Shown one piece after another: positions 15,621 through 52,563 of a stretch of 52,563 nt of DNA (positions are counted from its first letter, which is position 1; the number at the start of each line of letters is the position of its first letter). Both the position numbers and the translations under genes were made by a program. Under the pieces are notes generated by a model that did not search any database, was not told the DNA's origin, and was given only the letters and a program-made list of their open reading frames with translations. Source of the DNA: Planctomycetota bacterium (GTDB lineage: Bacteria > Planctomycetota > Planctomycetia > JALXBF01); the NCBI GenBank assembly GCA_026991575.1, contig JALXBF010000115.1, positions 1 through 52,563 of the forward strand, read 5' to 3'.

Positions 15621-15632
15621 CGCGGTCGTCAG

Positions 15633-15992
15633 TGGAGGCGGCGGGAATCGAACCCGCGTCCCGCGACAGCTCGGTGAGGGCTTCTACGTGCGTAGCCGGT
15701 CTAGTTCGTCTCGCCCAGCCGGCTCTGACCGGCAAGAGCACAGCTGAGCCAGTCCGGAGTGGTTTCTCGTCGGAGCCTCCCCGGACACCGGCTCCGACCA
15801 GCCCGGTTCACGGCCTCTTGCAGGTTCCCCCGGGCGAAGGATCCTGCAGAGGGGCTACGTGTTTCGCTTACGCAGCCAGAGCATAAGAAGGAGTCGCACT
15901 TATTGTGCAGTCGGCTTGATAACGGGGCCTGCCGACCAACCCCGGCACGCCACCTCTCACCTCGTCTGCCCGGTCGATACCAATTCGCCCCC
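15633..15992 (-). ncRNA. ssrA: Transfer-messenger RNA (tmRNA)
   Basis: 360 nt on the minus strand. The 5' end GGGGGCG (15992-15986) pairs over 7 bp (one G-U) with the 3' acceptor strand that precedes discriminator A15633. The 3' part contains the T-arm GCGGGTTCGATTCCCGC, and the 5' part contains the GGTATCGAC element corresponding to the usual GGxTTCGAC. CCA is not encoded (ACT follows), so it must be added after transcription. The RNA rescues stalled ribosomes together with SmpB, whose gene lies 230 bases upstream on the same strand. A good terminator follows. The mature 5' end is inferred from acceptor pairing. Confidence 0.95.
15868..15897 (-). other. tmRNA proteolysis-tag reading frame
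   Basis: Within ssrA the sequence AATAAGT-GCG begins a frame GCG ACT CCT TCT TAT GCT CTG GCT GCG TAA, giving tag ATPSYALAA (after the Ala carried by tmRNA). The resume context resembles the E. coli AATAGTC-GCA, and the YALAA end matches the degron recognised by ClpXP-type proteases. The resume codon is inferred by analogy; an upstream in-frame GCC would give a longer tag. Confidence 0.8.
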
Positions 15993-18151: not shown

Positions 18152-19468
18152 TCATCCGTACACGACCAACTTCTCCGTAAACGGAACAGCCATCCCCTCC
18201 TTGGAGCGGTGCCTGATGTACACGGCTCGATCACCTGGCCGACGAACGGAAACGTACATCTCGATGGTCATCTCCTTGGTGCCGGGAGTCAGATCGACCA
18301 CGACCTGACCCTCCGGGACGTTGCTAAGCCACTGATCTCTTAGCCCTTGCTGAGCCTCCACGAGCCGATCAGGGCTATCGAACTCGCAGAACACCCAGCG
18401 AGGTGACCGGGCAATCAAGCCTCTGGAGAAGCGTGCCACAAGGTCCCGAATCTCCTCGGCCTTCTGCCTCATGTTCTGCGTGTACAGCAGCAGCACCCGG
18501 TCCGGCTGTGTGGCGACGACGCTATAGAAAGCCGAAGCAGCGTTGCCGCTGGCGATCGTGACCAGCGTGTCCGCCGACTGCTGGCCCGTCTGCTGCAGCC
18601 ACTGCTCCCGCAACGCTGCAGCAACGCGGGGCATTACGACCCGCTGATAGTACGCCCTGGCTTTCTCATACTGTCCGGACGAAATCAGACGATCGAAGTA
18701 CTTTTGATGCTCTTGCGGCGGGGCGTCGGCTCGCGGGGCGGGCGGAAAGAGGTCCTTGCACGCCCGGAGCACCTCCCGAAGATCACGGTGCCGGCAGCTT
18801 AGCGAAACGATCTTCAACTCAGCACCCAGTTCTGCGCGCTTCCGCTCCGCTTCTTCTCGATTGAGCTCCGGAACCAGCAGTCGCTCTGCGCCGAGCTCCA
18901 CCGCAAGCTCGACCTTCTGAGGGATTCCCTTCACCGGAAGCACGCCAGACTCAGGGGACCACTCACCCGTGGCAAGACAGCGCAGCGGAGCCTCCAGCGT
19001 ATCCGCAACATCCAACAACGCGATCGCCGCGGGAACCCACCCGGACTCCCATCGCACCAGACTTGCGTCTGTCAGCAGCTCCACCGCCTCTTTCGATACC
19101 CCCTCGGGGGCACATAGGCGCCAGCCAGGCACGTCGAGGCTTCGGCTGACGCGGTCACCGAACGGCAGCACCAGACCGTCATCAGCTGCACCCGCCCGGC
19201 GCCACACAACCGGCAGCGCAATAGCCTGCCGCAGCAGCGGCACCTCCGCCAGCAGCACAAACAGAATCGCAGTGCGCCCTTCCCCGGTTGCTTCGGCCAG
19301 GTCCATCCTGTGGCTGTTGCCAAAGAGTTCATCCAGCCGGCGGAGCGCAGCCGGACACAAGATCCAGACACTCCACGGGCCGAAGGCTCGGGCAACCTGC
19401 GTTAACCGGCCCGGGGTCAACGCATCCAGTTCGGTATCGACTAGACGCAAGAGATCCGATCGAGTCAT
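18152..19468 (-). CDS. Lon-like protease domain fused to CARF-like sensor domain (cassette A)
   Basis: 438 residues from ATG 19468 (a GTG at 19540 is a longer option). Residues ~1-130 are an unassigned N-terminal domain. Residues ~138-205 match the S16/Lon proteolytic fold: SGWVPAAIALL with candidate nucleophile S142, TGEW (167-170), then VLPVKGIPQK with K185, followed by the typical GAERLLVP strand. The Ser-Lys spacing is 43, as in Lon, and the Lys aligns with that of LonB proteases. A helical linker (YFDRL...ARAYYQRVV) leads to a CARF-like Rossmann domain (~300-420) with LVTIASGN at its first strand and VVVDLTPGTKEM at 388-400, resembling the ligand-binding motif of Card1/Can-type CARF proteins. 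I infer a nucleotide-gated protease. It is the last gene of a minus-strand set with a helical/beta protein (44-bp coding overlap-free gap of ~0.1 kb) and a sigma factor. A full-length paralogue sits at 48-49.5 kb. Confidence 0.75.
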   Translation of the reverse strand: MTRSDLLRLVDTELDALTPGRLTQVARAFGPWSVWILCPAALRRLDELFGNSHRMDLAEATGEGRTAILFVLLAEVPLLRQAIALPVVWRRAGAADDGLVLPFGDRVSRSLDVPGWRLCAPEGVSKEAVELLTDASLVRWESGWVPAAIALLDVADTLEAPLRCLATGEWSPESGVLPVKGIPQKVELAVELGAERLLVPELNREEAERKRAELGAELKIVSLSCRHRDLREVLRACKDLFPPAPRADAPPQEHQKYFDRLISSGQYEKARAYYQRVVMPRVAAALREQWLQQTGQQSADTLVTIASGNAASAFYSVVATQPDRVLLLYTQNMRQKAEEIRDLVARFSRGLIARSPRWVFCEFDSPDRLVEAQQGLRDQWLSNVPEGQVVVDLTPGTKEMTIEMYVSVRRPGDRAVYIRHRSKEGMAVPFTEKLVVYG

Positions 19469-19584
19469 CGGAGTGCTCTTGCTCCGCTTCGATTGTTCCC
19501 CCGTTGTCGCCGGCGACAGCTCTCGTCCTCGAGATACCACTCGCCGGCCACCCCCGTGCGCTTACTGTCGTTACGCCAACAGTG

Positions 19585-20757
19585 TCAGCCTGTCGATTCA
19601 GGCCTCTCGTCCTGTTCGACCACACGCTGGGCTTCGCGCAGGGCGTCCAGGTCCGGCGGCCACTCCAGCGGCTCTGTTCCCGGTATGCTCACCTCAAGCC
19701 GCACCGGGGTGTCTTCAGCCAGTTGCCGGCGAAGTTCACGGACTGAGAACGAACAACGGCCTGATTCGTCGATGGTGGTCGTGACGCCGGCCAGTCGAAC
19801 CAGGCCCCCGGCCAGTTCCGTCGCCTCACTGCCGTCCGAATGGCGCACGAACAGCATTCGGATCTCGTCTTCGTCGCTCAGCGGATAACGGATTCTGCTC
19901 TCGGCACGGTACCGCCGCTGTGGATCGTGCCAGACGAGCCAGACCGGGATCCCGGTTCCGCGAGCAGCGGCTCGCACGGTGATGAGACCTGGCGGAAAAC
20001 GGGGATACTCCGGCTCGGGCCGTGGGGGCTCCATTGCGTAGACTACCGCTTCCGCCTCTGCGGCGGTGGCAGCGGCTGCCGTGAGCCGAGCGGTTAGCTG
20101 CTGCAGATCGCGTTCAACGTCACGTGCCAGGGCCTCGGCTGCTTCATCCAGGCCCGGCCCCAGCCACCACGGGGTCTCGTGGGCGTACTCGGGCACGATC
20201 GCGTCGCGCCAGCGCTTCAGCAGCGGGTTGCCGCGAACGGTGCACAAAACGTCGACCTGCTCACGCAGCGCTCGGTCGTACTCATTGAGCGCATCAGTCA
20301 GGCGCCCGACCAGCCCCAGGAACTCCTCATCGGTCACTTCCCCTGCGTCGACCGCCTCAAGCAGTCTGTGTGTCAGCCCGGTATAGACCGCCTGGGCTTC
20401 CATGCGGTTGACGAGCGCGTCCAGACAGAGCTGTTCGCGCCGGGTGAAGTCCTCTTCCGCATCCCACTGCTGGCCGAGCTTACGGGCCTGGTCGGCAAAC
20501 GCCAGAAAGGCTTCGGTGGCTTGGGCCGTACCTAGTCGAACCAGGTGCAACGGGATCTGGCCAGGCAGCTGGTCCTGGGCAACCCCGAACAGAAGACACT
20601 CGCCCAGTGCTCGGGCCGCCGTGTAAGCGACGCGACGAGCCTCTGCGTCGTCCGTGGTCGGTTCGGTCACGGCCTGGTGTCGGAGTGCCTCAGCCAGTTC
20701 CCGTAACGGGGAAGCCGTCAATTGTTCACGCAGTCGCTGGATCTCTTCTGTGTTCAT
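19585..20757 (-). CDS. Helical protein with C-terminal beta domain (cassette A, candidate adaptor or anti-sigma)
   Basis: 390 residues from ATG 20757, with GGAG 7 bases upstream. Residues 1-250 are mostly alpha-helical, rich in Ala, Glu, Leu and Arg, with no recognised domain. Residues ~270-380 are beta-rich (LITVRAAARGTGIPVWLVW, then YRAESRIRYPL) and contain ATELAGGLVRLAGVTTTIDE, which is closely matched by ASELAGARVEFAGATAVIDE in the cassette B protein at 50959-52140; the two proteins differ by only three residues in length. There is no signal peptide or transmembrane segment, so it is cytosolic. It lies between a sigma factor and the Lon-CARF protein. By analogy with CalpT it could be the protease substrate or sigma inhibitor, but no anti-sigma motif is visible. 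The function is unknown. Confidence 0.7.
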   Translation of the reverse strand: MNTEEIQRLREQLTASPLRELAEALRHQAVTEPTTDDAEARRVAYTAARALGECLLFGVAQDQLPGQIPLHLVRLGTAQATEAFLAFADQARKLGQQWDAEEDFTRREQLCLDALVNRMEAQAVYTGLTHRLLEAVDAGEVTDEEFLGLVGRLTDALNEYDRALREQVDVLCTVRGNPLLKRWRDAIVPEYAHETPWWLGPGLDEAAEALARDVERDLQQLTARLTAAAATAAEAEAVVYAMEPPRPEPEYPRFPPGLITVRAAARGTGIPVWLVWHDPQRRYRAESRIRYPLSDEDEIRMLFVRHSDGSEATELAGGLVRLAGVTTTIDESGRCSFSVRELRRQLAEDTPVRLEVSIPGTEPLEWPPDLDALREAQRVVEQDERPESTG

Positions 20758-21023
20758 GGCTGCTCCGGCGGAAAATCCGCGTTTCCAAGACAAACCGTTC
20801 CAAACCAACCGGTCGGGGTCAGTTCAGCCACTGCCTCTGCCTGCATTTGTTACGACCCAGGGCGCAGACTCCTGACAGGAACCAGCCGCCACGTCTGCCG
20901 GGAGTCGCCGGCGGAGCCGGTCGCTTCCGGTCCTTGCCAGCCTGCCGGTACCATGGGCGGCGGCATGTGCACGTCGTGCTTCCGTCACGATGGCTGCCTC
21001 TGGGGTAACGTGACCGGTGCGCG

Positions 21024-21791
21024 TCAGCCGCGCAAGTTCTCGCGGAGTTCCTGAATCGCTTTAAGCTGCAGGAGATATCGCTTCTTCCGGCTCCACACGG
21101 CGTGCACCACAGCGGGGGAAACGCCTAGTTCCTGAGCCAGCGCCGTAGCGCGTCCGTGTTCCCACCCGGGATGGTCCAGATGAGGGGGTGGAAAGGATGC
21201 CGGGAGCTTGGCTTCGCTGCACCACTGGGCCCACACGACCGCTGGCACCTTGCGGTGCATTCCGGCCAGCACAAGCAGGATGATCCGGTCGCGTACCGGG
21301 ACCGACGCGAGAACTTCCAGGTCGTGCTGGCAAAACGGCTCGTTGCGTGCGGCGGTTTCGGCCGGTCCTGGAGCCGGGTCGTGCGGATCAAGGTGCGGGG
21401 CAGAACCGCCGTCATCGTGTTTGCGACCACCGCCGGTTGCAAGCTGCTCCCAGGACAGCTCTCGTCTTCTTTTCTTGACGAGATCGAGCAGGGCATTCTT
21501 CAGCACCCGGCGCGCCCAACCGACGAAGGGACTGCCGGCGCTGGGATTGTACGCTCCCTGCAGTACCTTCACCATCGCGTCCTGAACAACGTCCTCAAGC
21601 GTGGCGTCGTCGAAGCGGTTGCCGAAATGCAGTGCGTTCAGCATTCGCGACACCTGCATGAGCGCGTCGCGTACCCGGAGCGCAGCCGCGTCCTCTTGAT
21701 GCGGTGAAGCAGTTGGGTTGAGCAAAGTGGATACGGCAGCGTGTAACGCCGTTTGCTGCCCGGATGTCTGTTGCCCTTGACCCGCTGCCAT
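21024..21791 (-). CDS. ECF-type RNA polymerase sigma factor (cassette A)
   Basis: 255 residues from ATG 21791 (GGGAG 5 bases upstream; GTG 21803 is 4 codons longer). Residues ~45-115 look like sigma region 2: FDDATLEDVVQDAMVKVLQ, then SPFVGWARRVLKNALLDLVKKRRRE, the core-binding and -10 recognition helices. After an acidic, Gly/Pro-rich linker, the C-terminal ~60 residues read as region 4 with a helix-turn-helix (ATALAQELGVSPAVVHAVWSRKKRYL). ECF factors direct polymerase to small regulons and are usually held by an anti-sigma partner. The next gene downstream on the same strand (267 bases away) is the helical/beta protein, then the Lon-CARF protein. Region 4 contains an unusual insertion (MHRKVPAVVWAQWCSEAKLP) before the helix-turn-helix. 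Confidence 0.82.
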   Translation of the reverse strand: MAAGQGQQTSGQQTALHAAVSTLLNPTASPHQEDAAALRVRDALMQVSRMLNALHFGNRFDDATLEDVVQDAMVKVLQGAYNPSAGSPFVGWARRVLKNALLDLVKKRRRELSWEQLATGGGRKHDDGGSAPHLDPHDPAPGPAETAARNEPFCQHDLEVLASVPVRDRIILLVLAGMHRKVPAVVWAQWCSEAKLPASFPPPHLDHPGWEHGRATALAQELGVSPAVVHAVWSRKKRYLLQLKAIQELRENLRG

Positions 21792-22618
21792 TGGAACTCC
21801 CACGTTCTCTCAGCGCAACCGTCCGCATCAGTGAGTACAAGCCGGGGGTTCAGCGTGCCACCACAGAGGCTGGCCACGCGATCGGCTGCCCTGTCGCGGC
21901 CGACAGCAACAGCAGGCCGTTCCCGGGTGCCCGACTGCCTGTCTCGCGGGCGTGACGCGTTCGGGTTTGCTTGCCCCGCGACCGAAGGCGCCCGCTAGTG
22001 TAGCAGCGCGCACCTGCTGGAGACAGATGCCGGCCGTTCCCCGCCCCGGTTAGTCCGGACCCAACCGGGCACCGTACTTCGGCCGAGCGCGGAACGCGAA
22101 GGATCGGCCCCGGCGCGCGTCGAAGCACCGTGTGCCAGGGCCGGCTCCACGCAGCGCGCCCTGGAGGCTCGGGATTGTGGAGTGTGCCGGCTCCGTGAGA
22201 CTCTGCAGCGTCGTGCCGTGACGAGGGGCCGTCAGAGGCTGGCAGTGGGGGCCTTGCGATGCACTCCGCCCAAAGGCAGGCGCCTTTCTGAGGCTGCCAA
22301 TGCATGCCCCAGGTTGCTCGGCCCTCGGTACATGACACGGACGAAGCGGCGAGAGCACTCCAACGCAACGAGCGTGCCAGGTCAGGTCAACGTGGCGCGG
22401 CGACACTCGCGCGAGACTCATCTACAAGGCCAGCCAACCGGCCGGCAGTCGGGACACCGCACGGATGAGTCGGGCCGTCTGCAACCCCCGGGATCCGAAC
22501 CAGGGGTCACGACGTGTCCTGTTCGTTGACCGTATGCTGCGGGTGCCGGTATACTTGCGATCCGTAACCCGGTGCCCCAGGAGGATGCCGGGGGTCATCA
22601 CCAAGAAAGGAGCACGGC
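21792..22618. other. Intergenic region, about 0.8 kb
   Basis: Divergent space between cassette A's sigma gene and the TPR membrane protein gene; it should hold both promoters, including a possible autoregulated cassette promoter. The overlapping open frames on the two strands are shadows of high GC with no recognised product. No RNA or repeat was identified. Confidence 0.5.
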
Positions 22619-42645: not shown

Positions 42646-43619
42646 CTTCGGTTCGCCGACGGGCTAGCCCACCAGGCCTATGCCACCGCTCTACTGCTCT
42701 TGATCTTTCCTGTCCGCATGTGACGTCCACGGGGTAGCCCGCGTTACCTCTCGCAGTGGCCGTCGATTGACCACTTCGTTGCACATTGGCCACGTAGTTG
42801 GGCAGGGGCGAACAGGACAGTTTCCCTGTTGCTGCGGTTGTCCGCCGACTGGAGGCTTTGCACCGGGGCGTCCTTTCGACCCAATTCCCGTCAATAGCAT
42901 CTGCGTCGTGCCTTCGCAGGATTGCCGTGCGGCACTTCTCGCTGCTGGCCCATCATCCCTGCAGAAGGTGGCCGTGCTCGGAGCGCGGCAGGAGAGTACG
43001 CTGTTGCTCGCCTGGTATACGACCAGCTCTGCACAGGACGGCAGGGTCAGTAGCCTTGCTGGCAGGCCTGAGGTGCTCTGTTTTCCGTTGCCTGTGGTGT
43101 TGAGCCAGGCGGGGCCAGTTCAGCGTCTGCGCACACGATCGCTGGCCGAACGACAGGAAGACACGCCGGAGGGCATCGGGCTCAGGTTGCCATCCGGTGC
43201 CGTTCCGTTCTCGAGGGACATGCATGATGCTGCCCAACCCCGGACGAAGAGCCTGGGAGCTGGGCCCGGCACGTCCGGGGCTGCCCCAACGCGGTTCCGA
43301 GGCCGTCTTGCCGGGCATTGCGGTGGTCAGCCAGGCAGGCACCGCGGTCGCCGCTGCCCGAGCCGGGACGACCGCGACACCCCCGCTCCCGCTGGCCCGC
43401 CACGGCTTGGCGTAGACTGTGTGGTCGGGACGGCTTTGGATGGGACTTGCGAGACGAACGGTCTCGGGCGCGTCCGAGACGGCTCCGCTCCGAGGGCCCC
43501 ATCCGAGTCGGCCACGAACGCTTTCCTCCGCTCCGCGCCGTGCCAAAGATAAAGGGAACGCGGGGAAGCTGCCGCACCTGCGCGCGTGTTCGAAGAGCCC
43601 TTCTGGGAGAACCCTACCG
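42646..43619. other. Gene-poor region, about 1 kb, downstream of tRNA-Asn
   Basis: Between tRNA-Asn and the second ABC-2 permease. No ribosome-site-supported frame, RNA or repeat is seen; open frames at 42.8-43.5 kb on both strands overlap completely. tRNA genes often mark insertion points, but I find no attachment-site repeat here. Confidence 0.45.
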
Positions 43620-48004: not shown

Positions 48005-49483
48005 ATGAACCACTTCCGTACTGCTGTTCGCCAGGTCGCGCCGGACAGAACATCTGGTCGACGCACAATGCATGGGGTCACGATTTCAAGGGAGACGTTC
48101 GATTCCCTCGCGGAGCTTGCCGAAGAATACGGCCGTCGTCCCCGGTTGCGGCCATACATCGCAGAGAAGGCCTGTGATCTGGTGCAAGCCTTCGCTCCGT
48201 GGTGGCTAACGGCCGAGGCCCTGGCACAGGCCAGCCGCAGTGGTACTCCGCCCGCAGATGCGGTGGATCCTGCAAGGTTCACCACTCACGGCCTGGCCCG
48301 CATCCTTTGCCTGTGGCCGACGGCACTGGCCGCGACCATCGAACGAACGGCACCCGCGCGGGACGGTGCTCGCTTGTTACGCGACGCTTGCGTCTTGCCC
48401 GTGCGGTGGGTTCTTGGTGCTTCGCGGCCTGTCAATCCTCTTCCCGATCCACTGGCTCAACTCGCTGAGACTGTCCGATGCGAACTACGGGAAGTCGGCC
48501 TGTTGGCGCACGGCCAGGAAGTCACCCTGGAGTGGTGCCTGGGCCCCTATCGCTTGAAGAGCCCCATCGAGTTCTGTGATGTACAGCTAAGTCTTGCGTC
48601 CGGCTTCGTCCCTTTGGCCTCGGCACTGATTGTGGCAGCGAACGGAGGCGAGCCTGCCGTGGGCGTGTGGTCCACGGGAGCGTGGAACGCGGAGTTCAAC
48701 TTTTGCGAGAACGTGGACGGCGTGCCGCAAAAGGTGCGGACAGCGCTTTCGTTTGGTGCCGAACACGTTTTCGTCCCCTCCGGAAACTACCACGAAGCAG
48801 CAAGGGAAGCAGCCAGGCCCGAGCAGGTGCATGCGCTGGCCGTGGGGCCATCGCTGGACCGAGTGCTCGCGCCGCTGTTGGTGGCCTATCGGGCAGAGCC
48901 ACCTGCCAACGCCTCCTACGAGGAGAAACGCGCGTACTACGTGTACACAGCCGAGTACGATCCGTCGCGCGCACGACGGTACTACGACCGGGCACTCCTG
49001 GAAGACGTCGCGGCCCGAGTGACGCAACGGATGGATGCCCAGCTTTGCTCGCTTGTGGAAGGCCGCTGCGCTCTGGTAACCGTGGCCAGCCAGAGTCCAG
49101 GTGTCGTGTTGCTGGCGGCTTTGGTATTCCGCCCTTGCCGAATCGTGCTCGTGTACGACGATGCGCAGGCCGCCAAGCAGGTGAATGACGAACTGAGGCA
49201 ACGCGGTTACAGCAACGTGGTATGCCTGAGGCTGGACGAAGACCATTTGGGCACAGTGAGGCAGCTCGCCGCAAAGATCAACGAGTGCACAGCGGGCCTG
49301 CCTGTCATCATTGACCTGACTCCGGGTAGCAAGAGCCACACGCTTGCGCTCTACCGGGCACCTGTACAACGGGCCCATCGCGTCTATCTGAGGAACCGCT
49401 GGACCCAGCCGTCCCGAAAGGGGGCGCGGGGGATCGAGGACCCCGACACGATGCAATACGTGACGGTGACAGACGACCAGTAG
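48005..49483 (+). CDS. Lon-like protease domain fused to CARF-like sensor domain (cassette B)
   Basis: 492 residues from ATG 48005 (ATG 48068, 21 codons in, is an alternative; neither has a strong ribosome site). It is a full-length paralogue of the 18152-19468 protein. The Lon-like region shows SGFVPLASAL with candidate S199, TGAW (224-227) and DGVPQK with K243, spacing 44, followed by GAEHVFVPSGNYHEA, aligned with SGWVPAAIAL, TGEW, KGIPQK and GAERLLVPELNREEA of cassette A. Then comes the shared linker (ARRYYDRALLEDVAARV) and a CARF-like domain with LVTVASQSPGVVLLAA (357-372) and PVIIDLTPGSKSHTLAL (433-449). The N-terminal ~180 residues diverge more. It is the first gene of a three-gene plus-strand set; the sigma-like gene starts 90 bases after its stop. 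Activity and ligand are unknown. Confidence 0.75.
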   Translation: MNHFRTAVRQVAPDRTSGRRTMHGVTISRETFDSLAELAEEYGRRPRLRPYIAEKACDLVQAFAPWWLTAEALAQASRSGTPPADAVDPARFTTHGLARILCLWPTALAATIERTAPARDGARLLRDACVLPVRWVLGASRPVNPLPDPLAQLAETVRCELREVGLLAHGQEVTLEWCLGPYRLKSPIEFCDVQLSLASGFVPLASALIVAANGGEPAVGVWSTGAWNAEFNFCENVDGVPQKVRTALSFGAEHVFVPSGNYHEAAREAARPEQVHALAVGPSLDRVLAPLLVAYRAEPPANASYEEKRAYYVYTAEYDPSRARRYYDRALLEDVAARVTQRMDAQLCSLVEGRCALVTVASQSPGVVLLAALVFRPCRIVLVYDDAQAAKQVNDELRQRGYSNVVCLRLDEDHLGTVRQLAAKINECTAGLPVIIDLTPGSKSHTLALYRAPVQRAHRVYLRNRWTQPSRKGARGIEDPDTMQYVTVTDDQ

Positions 49484-49573
49484 CTGCTGGTGCCACGGCC
49501 TCCAGAGGCTACGGGATCGACTGCTGGGACACCAGAACGGGGTGGCGTCGGTAGCGTAGCAGAGCAGAAGGTG

Positions 49574-50605
49574 ATGAGTGAGACCACACTTTACGGCTAC
49601 ACCTGCGAACAGTTGCAGAATCTCATCACGCGCGCCCGCAGCCTGGAAGACAACGACGCAGTCAGCGAGTTGCAGGGGCTGCTGACGAGGCTCGTGGAGA
49701 GTTTCCTCACGGGAGTTCCAGTGCCCCCCGGTCATTCCAGCGTAGAGTTCCAGAAATTCTTGGCGTTAGAGATCGTCCAAGAGCTCCTCTGCCATATCGT
49801 CTGGCCGCGGTCAGACGGTCGATACGCTTTCGACATCGGAAAAATGGACTCTGTCGACTCGCTGCGGGCGTGGGTCAGGGAGTGCGTGCGGCGGTGGCGC
49901 CGCAGGCAAGGCAGCGAGCGCCGCGTGAAACGGTTCACGGATCTGAAACGGGACGACAACGACGACGACACGGAACCGCCCAGCGTCAGTTTGGTTGATC
50001 CGAAGAGTCGACACCCGGTCGAAGCGATCGAACCGGACCCTCCGGCCCGGTACGTGTCCATCATGGGGTGCCTTTTTGATATCACCCAGTGGGCCGCGAG
50101 GCGACTGGCCAGCAAGAAATCGCTTGCGCAGGAATGGGTTGTTCGCTATTGGTTGTACGTCCGGCTGCGCTTGTACCAGCTGCTCTGTCGCCATGAGGAG
50201 AAGACGGTACGGCGCCCCTTGATTCTCCGCCTGGCCGAACGGTACATACCGTGGGATCCAGCCGTGGAGAACGTACCGTTGGCCAGGGACTGGCCAACGC
50301 TGGGGATGTGCTGGCAAGGCTTCGCCCGCCGAGCGGAAAGGCAGGAGACCTACGCGCAAACCTGCCTCATTGAGACCGTGTACGACCATCGCGCAGCGCA
50401 GGAGCCTTTCTCGGCTACGGACGAAGAGGCGGTGAAGAGAGCGATTCGAAATCAATGGGACCAGTGGTGCAGCCGGCTGCGCCGGCACCTCAAGGAGGCA
50501 GTAAGCGGTGTCTGCCCCTGGCACGAACCGGACGATACTCAACGCCAGGCTATGGAACTCTGGCACGCCGTTGCCTTTGGGGTACCGGAACGAGCCACCG
50601 AGTGA
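49574..50605 (+). CDS. Divergent ECF-sigma-like protein (cassette B)
   Basis: 343 residues from ATG 49574 (GTG 49490 is a longer option). Residues ~60-130 resemble sigma region 2: FLALEIVQELLCHIVW, then DSVDSLRAWVRECVRRWRRRQGSERRVKRF, comparable with the ECF sigma of cassette A, followed by an acidic linker (DDNDDDTEPPSVSLVDPKSRHP). The C-terminal ~180 residues are helical and Arg/Trp-rich and lack a recognisable region 4 helix-turn-helix, though a stretch near YWLYVRLRLYQLLCRHEEKT could correspond to cassette A's insertion. It is about 90 residues longer than its partner. A sigma-derived regulator with an altered promoter-binding half is the simplest reading; certainty is moderate. Confidence 0.6.
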   Translation: MSETTLYGYTCEQLQNLITRARSLEDNDAVSELQGLLTRLVESFLTGVPVPPGHSSVEFQKFLALEIVQELLCHIVWPRSDGRYAFDIGKMDSVDSLRAWVRECVRRWRRRQGSERRVKRFTDLKRDDNDDDTEPPSVSLVDPKSRHPVEAIEPDPPARYVSIMGCLFDITQWAARRLASKKSLAQEWVVRYWLYVRLRLYQLLCRHEEKTVRRPLILRLAERYIPWDPAVENVPLARDWPTLGMCWQGFARRAERQETYAQTCLIETVYDHRAAQEPFSATDEEAVKRAIRNQWDQWCSRLRRHLKEAVSGVCPWHEPDDTQRQAMELWHAVAFGVPERATE

Positions 50606-50958
50606 GTCGTAAAACGTTGAAGATGCCCCGGGGCGGTCTCAGCCGCGTTGCGCTTCCGTGTCAACAGCACTCGGCCCGGAAGGGTCAGAGCCGGTGGCAA
50701 CGATTGGACACCGCCTCTGCGGGTGGCCAGCATGGTTGGGAACCCGCCAGGAGGACCGGCGAGCGGTGTCGCATGAGGCCGTGGTCACGCTGAGGCGTCG
50801 AGTGGGAGCACGGCTGATGCGTCAGAAAACGCCGCGCTCTGCCCTATGAGGATGGAGAGGTGTACTGCCGGGCCTGCCCCGGCCTCTTCACGGTTCGGAA
50901 GGAGCCGGCCAAGTGTTATCAGACGTGGAAGGATCGTTACAGAGCGGAGCGACACAAG
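50606..50958. other. Intergenic region within cassette B, about 0.35 kb
   Basis: Gap between the sigma-like gene and the third cassette gene, similar in size to the 0.27-kb gap at the same sigma-to-adaptor junction of cassette A. In-frame GTG 50860 could extend the third gene. No other feature seen. Confidence 0.45.
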
Positions 50959-52140
50959 ATGGCTTCAATGAGAGTCGAGGCACAGCTGGCACGCCTGCAC
51001 AGCGAGTTCAACGTAGTCCTGCCCGATCCGGCCCGTTTGCTGCGCTGCTGGATCACAGAGTTCACGGAACTGTTGCCCAGGTTGCCCGAAGCGCTTGATG
51101 GGGACGATCCCACAGTTGCGCGGCGGCTGCTTACGTCCTGGGCTCGTCTCATGCGTGCCAAGCCCGCGCTTGTTGCGGCGGCTGCCGGCAGGCCACCTGA
51201 GCCAGGCGGGGGGGTGGCAGAGCAACTCGGGCTTCCGGAGCTGGCCGCGTGGGAGAGGCGTCTGCGAGATGAGCACATGGCGGCACTCGTTGAGAGGGCG
51301 AAGGCCACGGCCAACCCGAAGGCCTGGTCGGAGAGGCTCCAGGTGCTTCGCCGCGCCGTGGATGCGGCCGAGGAACCTGAGGACCTGCCGGATCGTACCG
51401 TCGAGCTTCTCAACGATCTGGACGAGCAGGAACTCCTCGACGCCTGCGCCGTGTACGCAGGCAGAACCGACCTGTCCTCGGAGGCGCTACTCGGTGTGCT
51501 CCGGGCTGCGGTGTGCGCGGAGGTTGACCTGTTCCTGCCGGCACGCGAGTACGTTCTTGAGGTCGCCCAAACACTACCGGGTGAACCCACGCACGCGGCG
51601 TTCGCTCCAACGTACTCGAAGTTCGAAGCGATCCTGGACGAGATTCTGGCAGCTGAACTGTTCGCCGAGGGACCGGCCGCGCCATCCTGGTTCCGAACCG
51701 AGCAACTCTTGGCCGAGACCATGCTGATCGGGATTGTCGCCGCCCTGCTGGAAGCGTATCGAGCCCAGCGGCCGGCGGTCCTGGCCGCTGCTGGTGAAGC
51801 CGAACGCGAAGAGTACCGCTCGGCACTCTGGCTCAGCCCTGATAAGCGGTTTGTGGCGCAACTGAGATGGGCACCTGCGGATGCGGCGCGACGCAAGCTG
51901 CCGATCCTCTTTCGCCACGCCTCGATGGTCCAGCGGCAAGTAGTACCGACAGATGCTGCCAGTGAGCTGGCGGGTGCCCGCGTTGAGTTCGCCGGTGCGA
52001 CGGCCGTCATCGACGAGCAGGCGACGGCCTGGTTTGACGTGGATGCGCTTGCGCCGGTCGAGAAAGAGCGAAGCTGGCAACTTGCCCGGCTGGTCGTGCG
52101 CCGCAACGGAACGACAGAGACGTGGACTTTGACCAAGTAG
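50959..52140 (+). CDS. Helical protein with C-terminal beta domain (cassette B, candidate adaptor or anti-sigma)
   Basis: 393 residues from ATG 50959 (GGAG ~10 bases upstream), three residues longer than the cassette A counterpart. Residues 1-260 are helical and rich in Ala, Leu, Glu and Arg (LLRCWITEFTELLPRLPEALDG; LLNDLDEQELLDACAVYAGR). Residues ~280-390 are beta-rich and contain ASELAGARVEFAGATAVIDE, the counterpart of ATELAGGLVRLAGVTTTIDE. No export signal or transmembrane helix. It is the last gene of cassette B and ends 90 bases before a transposase gene on the other strand. A substrate, inhibitor or adaptor role for the Lon-CARF or sigma partner is inferred from neighbourhood alone. 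Confidence 0.7.
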   Translation: MASMRVEAQLARLHSEFNVVLPDPARLLRCWITEFTELLPRLPEALDGDDPTVARRLLTSWARLMRAKPALVAAAAGRPPEPGGGVAEQLGLPELAAWERRLRDEHMAALVERAKATANPKAWSERLQVLRRAVDAAEEPEDLPDRTVELLNDLDEQELLDACAVYAGRTDLSSEALLGVLRAAVCAEVDLFLPAREYVLEVAQTLPGEPTHAAFAPTYSKFEAILDEILAAELFAEGPAAPSWFRTEQLLAETMLIGIVAALLEAYRAQRPAVLAAAGEAEREEYRSALWLSPDKRFVAQLRWAPADAARRKLPILFRHASMVQRQVVPTDAASELAGARVEFAGATAVIDEQATAWFDVDALAPVEKERSWQLARLVVRRNGTTETWTLTK

Positions 52141-52230
52141 CCGACAGTGTCCGGAGCGCCGCGCTATGAGAGGCCAGTTCAGCTTCTGGGTTTAGAAGCT
52201 TCGGGGGGAGAGCCCCACGGCTGACGCACT

Positions 52231-52563
52231 TCAAATCGTGGGCAGGGAGCCCGTACAGAGCAGTTCTAGCAGATCGTTCGGGTTGGACGCGAGTCGCAAG
52301 CGAACGGAGTCAATGCTTTCCTCGGGACCGATTGCACCTCGGAGTAAGGACAACGCTAATCGGTTTACCAATGCCATATTCTGTGCCGACACGAGATGCC
52401 GAATGCGCATCTGGTCCTCGCGAAATGAAACATCCGAAACCCAGTGCAGCTGGTTCTCGATCGACCAGTGGTTTCGAATCACCTTCGCATGGAGCTCAGC
52501 ATCCGGCTCGGCGCTGGATACGTAGTAACGTACCTGCTCTGTCCTACGCCCAGACGACAGATG
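52231..52563 (-). mobile_element. ISAs1-like family transposase, C-terminal part (5' end outside window)
   Basis: The frame is open from the right edge to TGA at 52231 (about 110 residues visible). It contains RYYVSSAEPDAELHAKVIRNHW, then HWSIENQLHWVSDVSFREDQMRIR, the C-terminal catalytic region typical of ISAs1 (DDE) transposases (IEN near the last acidic residue). An internal GTG gives an 83-residue frame, but the coding sequence clearly extends upstream. It is the nearest mobile element to cassette B. The element's terminal inverted repeats are not resolved. Confidence 0.88.

Follow-up and report, generated by a model that had tools for sequence, protein, structure and literature searches.

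The 52,563-nucleotide stretch of DNA analysed here (the window) corresponds to the complete contig C115 (JALXBF010000115.1) from a draft Planctomycetota genome, GCA_026991575.1 (G000; 191 contigs, 97.84% complete), and contains two three-gene cassettes which each encode a protease with CARF and Lon domains (CARF-Lon), a protein of extracytoplasmic function (ECF) sigma factor type and a third protein with helical and beta parts, here called HELB. Cassette A spans positions 18152-21803 on the reverse strand in the order sigma factor (21024-21803), HELB (390 residues; open reading frame (ORF) 19585-20808, ATG at 20757) and CARF-Lon (18152-19540). Cassette B lies on the forward strand with the protease first (ORF 48005-49483), followed by a sigma-like protein (49490-50605) and HELB (393 residues; ORF 50860-52140, ATG at 50959); translation of its protease probably begins at the ATG at 48068 (residue 22), which is near-invariant in the family alignment. 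The cassettes had been picked out earlier from the letters and ORFs of the window (the original prediction). The ORFs, strands and gene orders described there are confirmed by these coordinates, the short motifs quoted as common to both cassettes are found in both copies, and the near-equal lengths given for the third protein hold when counted from the ATGs.

Both window proteases match the PADLOC model PDLC01981 (CARF_m2--CARF_LON) over nearly their full length (2.3e-81 for A, 2.2e-67 for B). Since PADLOC already holds a CARF-Lon model, the protein family is not new; no functional work on CARF_m2 CARF-Lon proteins was found in the literature searched. A scan of genome contigs with a three-row alignment found one relative. 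An alignment of 37 CARF-Lon proteins has three invariant columns, occupied by a Trp, a Ser and a Lys. The Ser aligns with that of the GPSAG motif in the genome's own Lon and the Lys with the second Lys of its GGIKEK motif, in 37/37 rows each; in E. coli numbering this dyad is S679/K722. The predicted catalytic residues are S199 (48599-48601, forward strand) and K243 (48731-48733, forward) in cassette B, and in the same columns S166 (19043-19045, reverse strand) and K209 (18914-18916, reverse) in cassette A. The idea that the Lon domain is dead, GPSAG not being kept, was rejected because both residues align with the dyad of the genome's Lon and are invariant throughout the family. The Lon-type Ser-Lys dyad is thus intact in both window proteases, which are predicted to be active S16-type proteases. 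Compared with solved structures, the family profile (37 rows) matches the CARF domains of Csm6 (2.4e-14) as well as Lon protease domains (5.7e-11). In PADLOC and the PDB alike, the sensor half matches CARF proteins, with no SAVED model among the matches listed. The predicted ligand-site motif of the CARF domain, DLTPGSK in cassette B (residues 437-443; 49313-49333, forward strand), was located from the Csm6 comparison and column counts, and its D-x-T-x-G core is mostly kept (D in 34/37 rows, T in 33/37 and G in 36/37). A structure model built from three sequences has a confidence (pLDDT) of 47.5, with the CARF half alone confident.

CARF-Lon genes are scarce, occurring in 7/392 genomes of a phylum-wide sample (E <= 1e-15) and in 31/397 of a class-level sample (E <= 1e-10). 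Neighbourhoods were retrieved for most of the matches. Outside the window there were 45, of which 40 were full-length and 37 had at least 2.8 kb of upstream sequence; these 37 testable loci include several from one genome. Two proteins matched only the C-terminal part of the PADLOC model; of these, L096 was excluded for not being full-length and L095 stayed in the count. L033 and L090 are apparently one contig (12832 bases), counted as L090 alone. HELB abuts CARF-Lon in 27/37 testable loci, 28/37 have a co-directional sigma gene upstream, and 26/37 have both. Seeds for the HELB and sigma profiles were window genes and neighbouring ones, and iteration ran over the ORFs of 50 loci, nearly all of them CARF-Lon neighbourhoods, so the downstream side served as a guard against seeding bias; neither gene was found there in any of 32 CARF-Lon loci. 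Manual checks revealed a HELB-like protein under threshold at L089 (score 52.3 against 17.1 for the best of 30 shuffles), a possible one at L088 (24.0 against 18.6, likewise of 30) and a sigma factor with a Sigma70_r2 match of 1.5e-5 at L082. Across 23 complete operons the pairwise distances of the three proteins are correlated (CARF-Lon/HELB 0.29, CARF-Lon/sigma 0.38, HELB/sigma 0.53), and none of 999 permutations was as high in any comparison, with shared species history remaining in these permutations. The suggestion that the three genes work as a unit is therefore strongly supported by the contrast of 26/37 with 0/32 and by the correlated distances, and sigma, HELB and CARF-Lon form a recurrent co-directional operon.

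The original prediction regarded all three genes of cassette B as paralogues of those in A. Direct pairwise alignment bears this out for CARF-Lon (score 237 against a shuffle maximum of 61, Z = 34.5; 200 shuffles) and for HELB (87 against 68, Z = 6.2; 200 shuffles), while the sigma pair scores 39, which 47 of 200 shuffles equal or exceed, and is at chance level. HELB B also matches a HELB profile built without A and the copies on contigs C117 (locus L010) and C96 (L011) of the same genome, at 132.6 bits (against 4.3 for the best of 500 shuffles). HELB A matches one built without B and L010 at 161.7 bits. The sigma factor of cassette A has a direct Pfam Sigma70_r2 match (2.9e-09), as do 14 of the 33 sigma-family rows in all. 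That of cassette B has no Pfam match by itself and is assigned through the family profile, which it matches at 61.3 bits with A and L011 left out (against 6.2 for the best of 500 shuffles). Ordinary ECF sigma factors (e.g. L005:8604-9257) are picked up by the iterated sigma profiles as well. Against the A-clade sigma factors alone the B protein scores 7.1, the same as the best shuffle, and the A protein scores 1.7 against the B-clade (best shuffle, 4.6). With direct scores at chance and a clear match to the family profile, the two sigma proteins are therefore related only via intermediates in the wider family.

Phylogenetic trees with homologues from other genomes, built for CARF-Lon and HELB, place the two cassettes in separate clades. 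The cassette A protease groups with proteins from genomes G539 (L076) and G744 (L063) with support of 100/99, and that of cassette B with L079 from G539, L062 from G744 and the third CARF-Lon copy of its own genome, L005 (98/95). A tree in which A and B are sister CARF-Lons is rejected by the approximately unbiased (AU) test (p-AU 0.0006); one joining B to the third copy is borderline (p-AU 0.047). The HELB tree is concordant, with A beside L063 (99/96) and B beside L010, L011, L062 and L079 (98/99). Because each cassette groups with different genes of G539 and G744, they were not copied from one another within this genome, and the trees and the AU test speak against a recent duplication. Of the two origins previously proposed, old duplication or separate acquisition, the trees thus favour separate lineages over a within-genome copy: A and B are, as judged from the sequence trees, old lineages which coexist in at least three genomes and were separately inherited, and a very old duplication may still lie behind them. 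Wherever the three genes occur together outside the window, their order is that of cassette A, with an additional gene (X) often present between sigma and HELB.

The operon is closely associated with type III CRISPR systems, a link on which the original prediction was silent, as it was on a third CARF-Lon and three further HELB genes in this genome. In the class sample a Cas10 palm domain was detected in 28/31 genomes with CARF-Lon and in 34/366 others (p = 1.6e-22). HELB was found in 29/397 genomes of this sample by a profile whose training set included many of them. In type III systems Cas10 produces cyclic oligoadenylate once invader RNA has been detected. The genome containing the window has three Cas10 genes, all keeping the GGDD motif, spread over a III-B locus and two III-D loci; gRAMP (Cas7-11) gave no match in it at E up to 1e-60. 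The third CARF-Lon (L005:10246-11670, contig C183; PADLOC 3.2e-76) shares its contig with the III-B Cas10, at a distance of about 23 kb. Of the five HELB genes, two are in the window and one, on C32 (L016), follows III-D genes. Another, on C117, is 57% identical to HELB B and adjoins a CARF-HEPN protein (L010:2486-5851) with a long C-terminal extension; this CARF nuclease may share the same sigma/anti-sigma circuit. The last lies on C96 (L011:6573-14489) in the order sigma-like gene, HELB, reverse transcriptase (RT)-like gene (read by eye), Cas1 and an 8-unit CRISPR-like array, which makes sigma control of spacer acquisition possible at this locus.

This arrangement resembles two known CRISPR-linked pathways. 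In the Calp system the SAVED-Lon protease CalpL cleaves the anti-sigma factor CalpT bound to CalpS (PMC11417357). Calp and the present cassettes have in common a Lon-type protease tied to type III CRISPR, an ECF sigma gene in the operon (for cassette B at family level only) and a third protein positioned as the candidate substrate. The cassettes differ from Calp in their sensor domain, CARF rather than SAVED, in having as third protein HELB, a member of another family for which no relative was detected, and in the extra gene X that is frequent in relatives of the window cassettes. In type III-E systems Csx29 cleaves Csx30, an inhibitor of CASP-sigma whose predicted targets include cas1 (PMC10028731). 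Here too the slots run sigma, small protein, candidate anti-sigma, and in Craspase the protease is known to cut the sigma inhibitor; unlike Craspase, in which a CHAT protease is bound to gRAMP, the present systems have a Lon-type protease that would sense cyclic oligoadenylate, and gRAMP was not found in this genome at the threshold above. Two III-E loci from the same phylum are arranged as CHAT or CHAT-slot, sigma-slot, csx31-slot and csx30-slot; only the L141 sigma-slot protein matches the sigma profiles, only L143 has a Pfam CHAT match, and the Csx30-slot protein L143:10251-11795 carries a zf-HC2 anti-sigma zinc finger (7.6e-8). Homology of HELB to Csx30 and of X to Csx31 was considered and rejected, as comparison of HELB and X with the tested slot proteins gave no sequence similarity in support of it.

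HELB itself was modelled at low confidence (two sequences, pLDDT 52.6) with residues 1-277 helical and 284-393 beta, and Foldseek with this model returned nothing at E <= 0.001. The zf-HC2 domain is present in 0/30 HELB rows. Nothing convincing was found when the HELB profile was compared with PDB sequences, a set in which the presence of CalpT is unchecked. At L031 the protein in the HELB slot matches the HELB beta domain at its C-terminus (35.9 against 17.6 for the best of 30 shuffles) and carries, by eye, HxxxCxxC at its N-terminus; read by eye, this locus also contains CRISPR-like repeats and genes resembling Cas10 and RT-Cas1. Because HELB resembles no Pfam, PDB or Csx30-slot protein, its putative roles as anti-sigma factor and protease substrate are drawn from its position and from analogy with CalpT and Csx30.

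Taken together, these observations are best read as a third CRISPR protease/anti-sigma/sigma pathway, in which CARF takes the place of the SAVED sensor of CalpL, with cassettes A and B as old, separately inherited versions of one type III CRISPR-tied immune signalling unit; we assign this a probability of roughly 0.6. In the proposed mechanism, Cas10 would detect invader RNA and make cyclic oligoadenylate, which would bind CARF-Lon at its C-terminal CARF domain and so activate the Ser-Lys protease. The protease would then cut HELB, which is predicted to hold the sigma factor inactive, and the freed sigma factor would transcribe defence genes. Spacer acquisition is possibly among its targets, since on C96 the sigma-HELB pair lies directly upstream of the RT-like and cas1 genes and the array.

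Several observations weigh against this pathway. HELB has no sequence similarity to any Pfam or PDB entry, and it aligns with two Csx30-slot proteins at an hhalign probability below 1 (these two have no match to each other either); Pfam makes no zinc-finger call in the HELB-slot protein of L031. The sigma protein of cassette B is strongly diverged. By profile, neither HELB nor sigma is found at 8/37 testable loci (L005, L031, L064, L065, L085, L090, L093 and L095), the first being the third CARF-Lon of this genome, which has no adjoining HELB or co-directional sigma gene. HELB occurs with no sigma gene nearby at L010 and L016, Cas10 was not detected in 3/31 CARF-Lon genomes, and HELB is also found in operons of genomes in which no Cas10 was detected (L134, L135 and L136).

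The gene between sigma and HELB bears on the first of three other explanations. Protein X (about 210-360 residues) occupies this position in 20 of 29 listed sigma-HELB pairs. By eye, two families of it can be told apart, X1 (7 members) and X2 (13), and these seem to be distant relatives of each other (hhalign probability 41, against 0.2 for the reversed control). CARF-Lon might free a toxic effector, with HELB as an antitoxin or cage for X and the sigma factor merely driving the operon; toxin release was also the earliest published reading for the SAVED-Lon substrate, according to a review that names CARF-Lon (PMC9704534). We consider this unlikely, given that X is missing from both window cassettes and from five further pairs in which sigma and HELB are complete, and that neither X1 nor X2 has a convincing Pfam, PADLOC or PDB match that would suggest a toxin.

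Away from CARF-Lon, three loci show HELB in other company. At L134 (7403-12017) sigma and X1 precede a fusion of the helical part of HELB with a DEAD helicase that has an MrfA zinc domain, and at L135 (5078-10784) a fusion of the same part with a DUF1156 protein; at L136 the set of sigma slot, X and HELB stands beside a 627-residue protein, and the sigma-slot protein is below the profile threshold. These fusions, together with the CARF-HEPN protein adjoining HELB on C117, would also fit a scaffold which recruits different immune effectors, CARF-Lon cutting some other host or phage protein, and cleavage of essential proteins or promiscuous cleavage is speculated upon in the same review (PMC9704534). 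A scaffold leaves unexplained both the constant sigma gene before HELB and the parallels with CalpT and Csx30, and we regard it as rather improbable. That cassette B is a decaying relic is very improbable: its gene order has no second instance among the loci examined, it has no X, and it sits at the contig edge with a transposase-like ORF fragment directly after it (52231-52482, read by eye), but its three ORFs are uninterrupted, the dyad and the CARF motif are intact, GC content is as in the remaining window, and the related HELB on C117 adjoins CARF-HEPN, so that its lineage is still in a CRISPR context.

Returning to the signalling pathway, the arrangement at L134 and L135 is possibly a non-CRISPR version of the module. 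More generally, we tentatively suggest, at less than even odds, that sigma-(X)-HELB is a plug-in which makes transcriptional switches of different immune sensors, and that HELB represents a novel anti-sigma class, whose members are cut (by CARF-Lon), paired (with CARF-HEPN) or fused to the sensor (DEAD helicase, DUF1156); such a plug-in would serve CRISPR and non-CRISPR immunity in Planctomycetota and could control spacer acquisition. That defence-type proteins outside CRISPR are also neighbours or fusion partners of HELB suggests a wider transcription-based immune circuit.

No experimentally established CARF-Lon target was found in the literature searched, and the one paper found there that names CARF-Lon, the review cited above, speculates about host-killing proteolysis (PMC9704534). 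The conserved operon points to a substrate (HELB) and an output (the sigma factor), which makes the question of the CARF-Lon target directly testable. If the pathway is real, it would be the third in which a CRISPR protease reaches a transcriptional response, with a sensor unlike that of CalpL and a protease unlike Csx29. A description of the sigma/HELB/CARF-Lon operon was not found in the accessible text of the literature searched, which does not include the original classification of CARF proteins or the Nature paper on Calp, where an earlier mention is possible.

Finally, some features of the surrounding sequence were recorded. A 12-base motif, GGSCAGTTCAGC, has four matches in the window with at most one mismatch (chance mean 0.88; 2 of 100 shuffles reach this number); it was considered as a sigma promoter, and one copy may be a transposon end. 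A shared motif, GG(T/C)CAGTTCAGC, is located near each cassette and once in between (20817-20828, 43113-43124 and 52172-52183), has its number of matches reached in 2 of 100 shuffles, and could be either a promoter element or a transposon end. Cassette A is flanked by a tmRNA gene (15632-15992) and a tRNA-Ser gene (21987-22074); tmRNA and tRNA genes are frequent insertion places of mobile islands.

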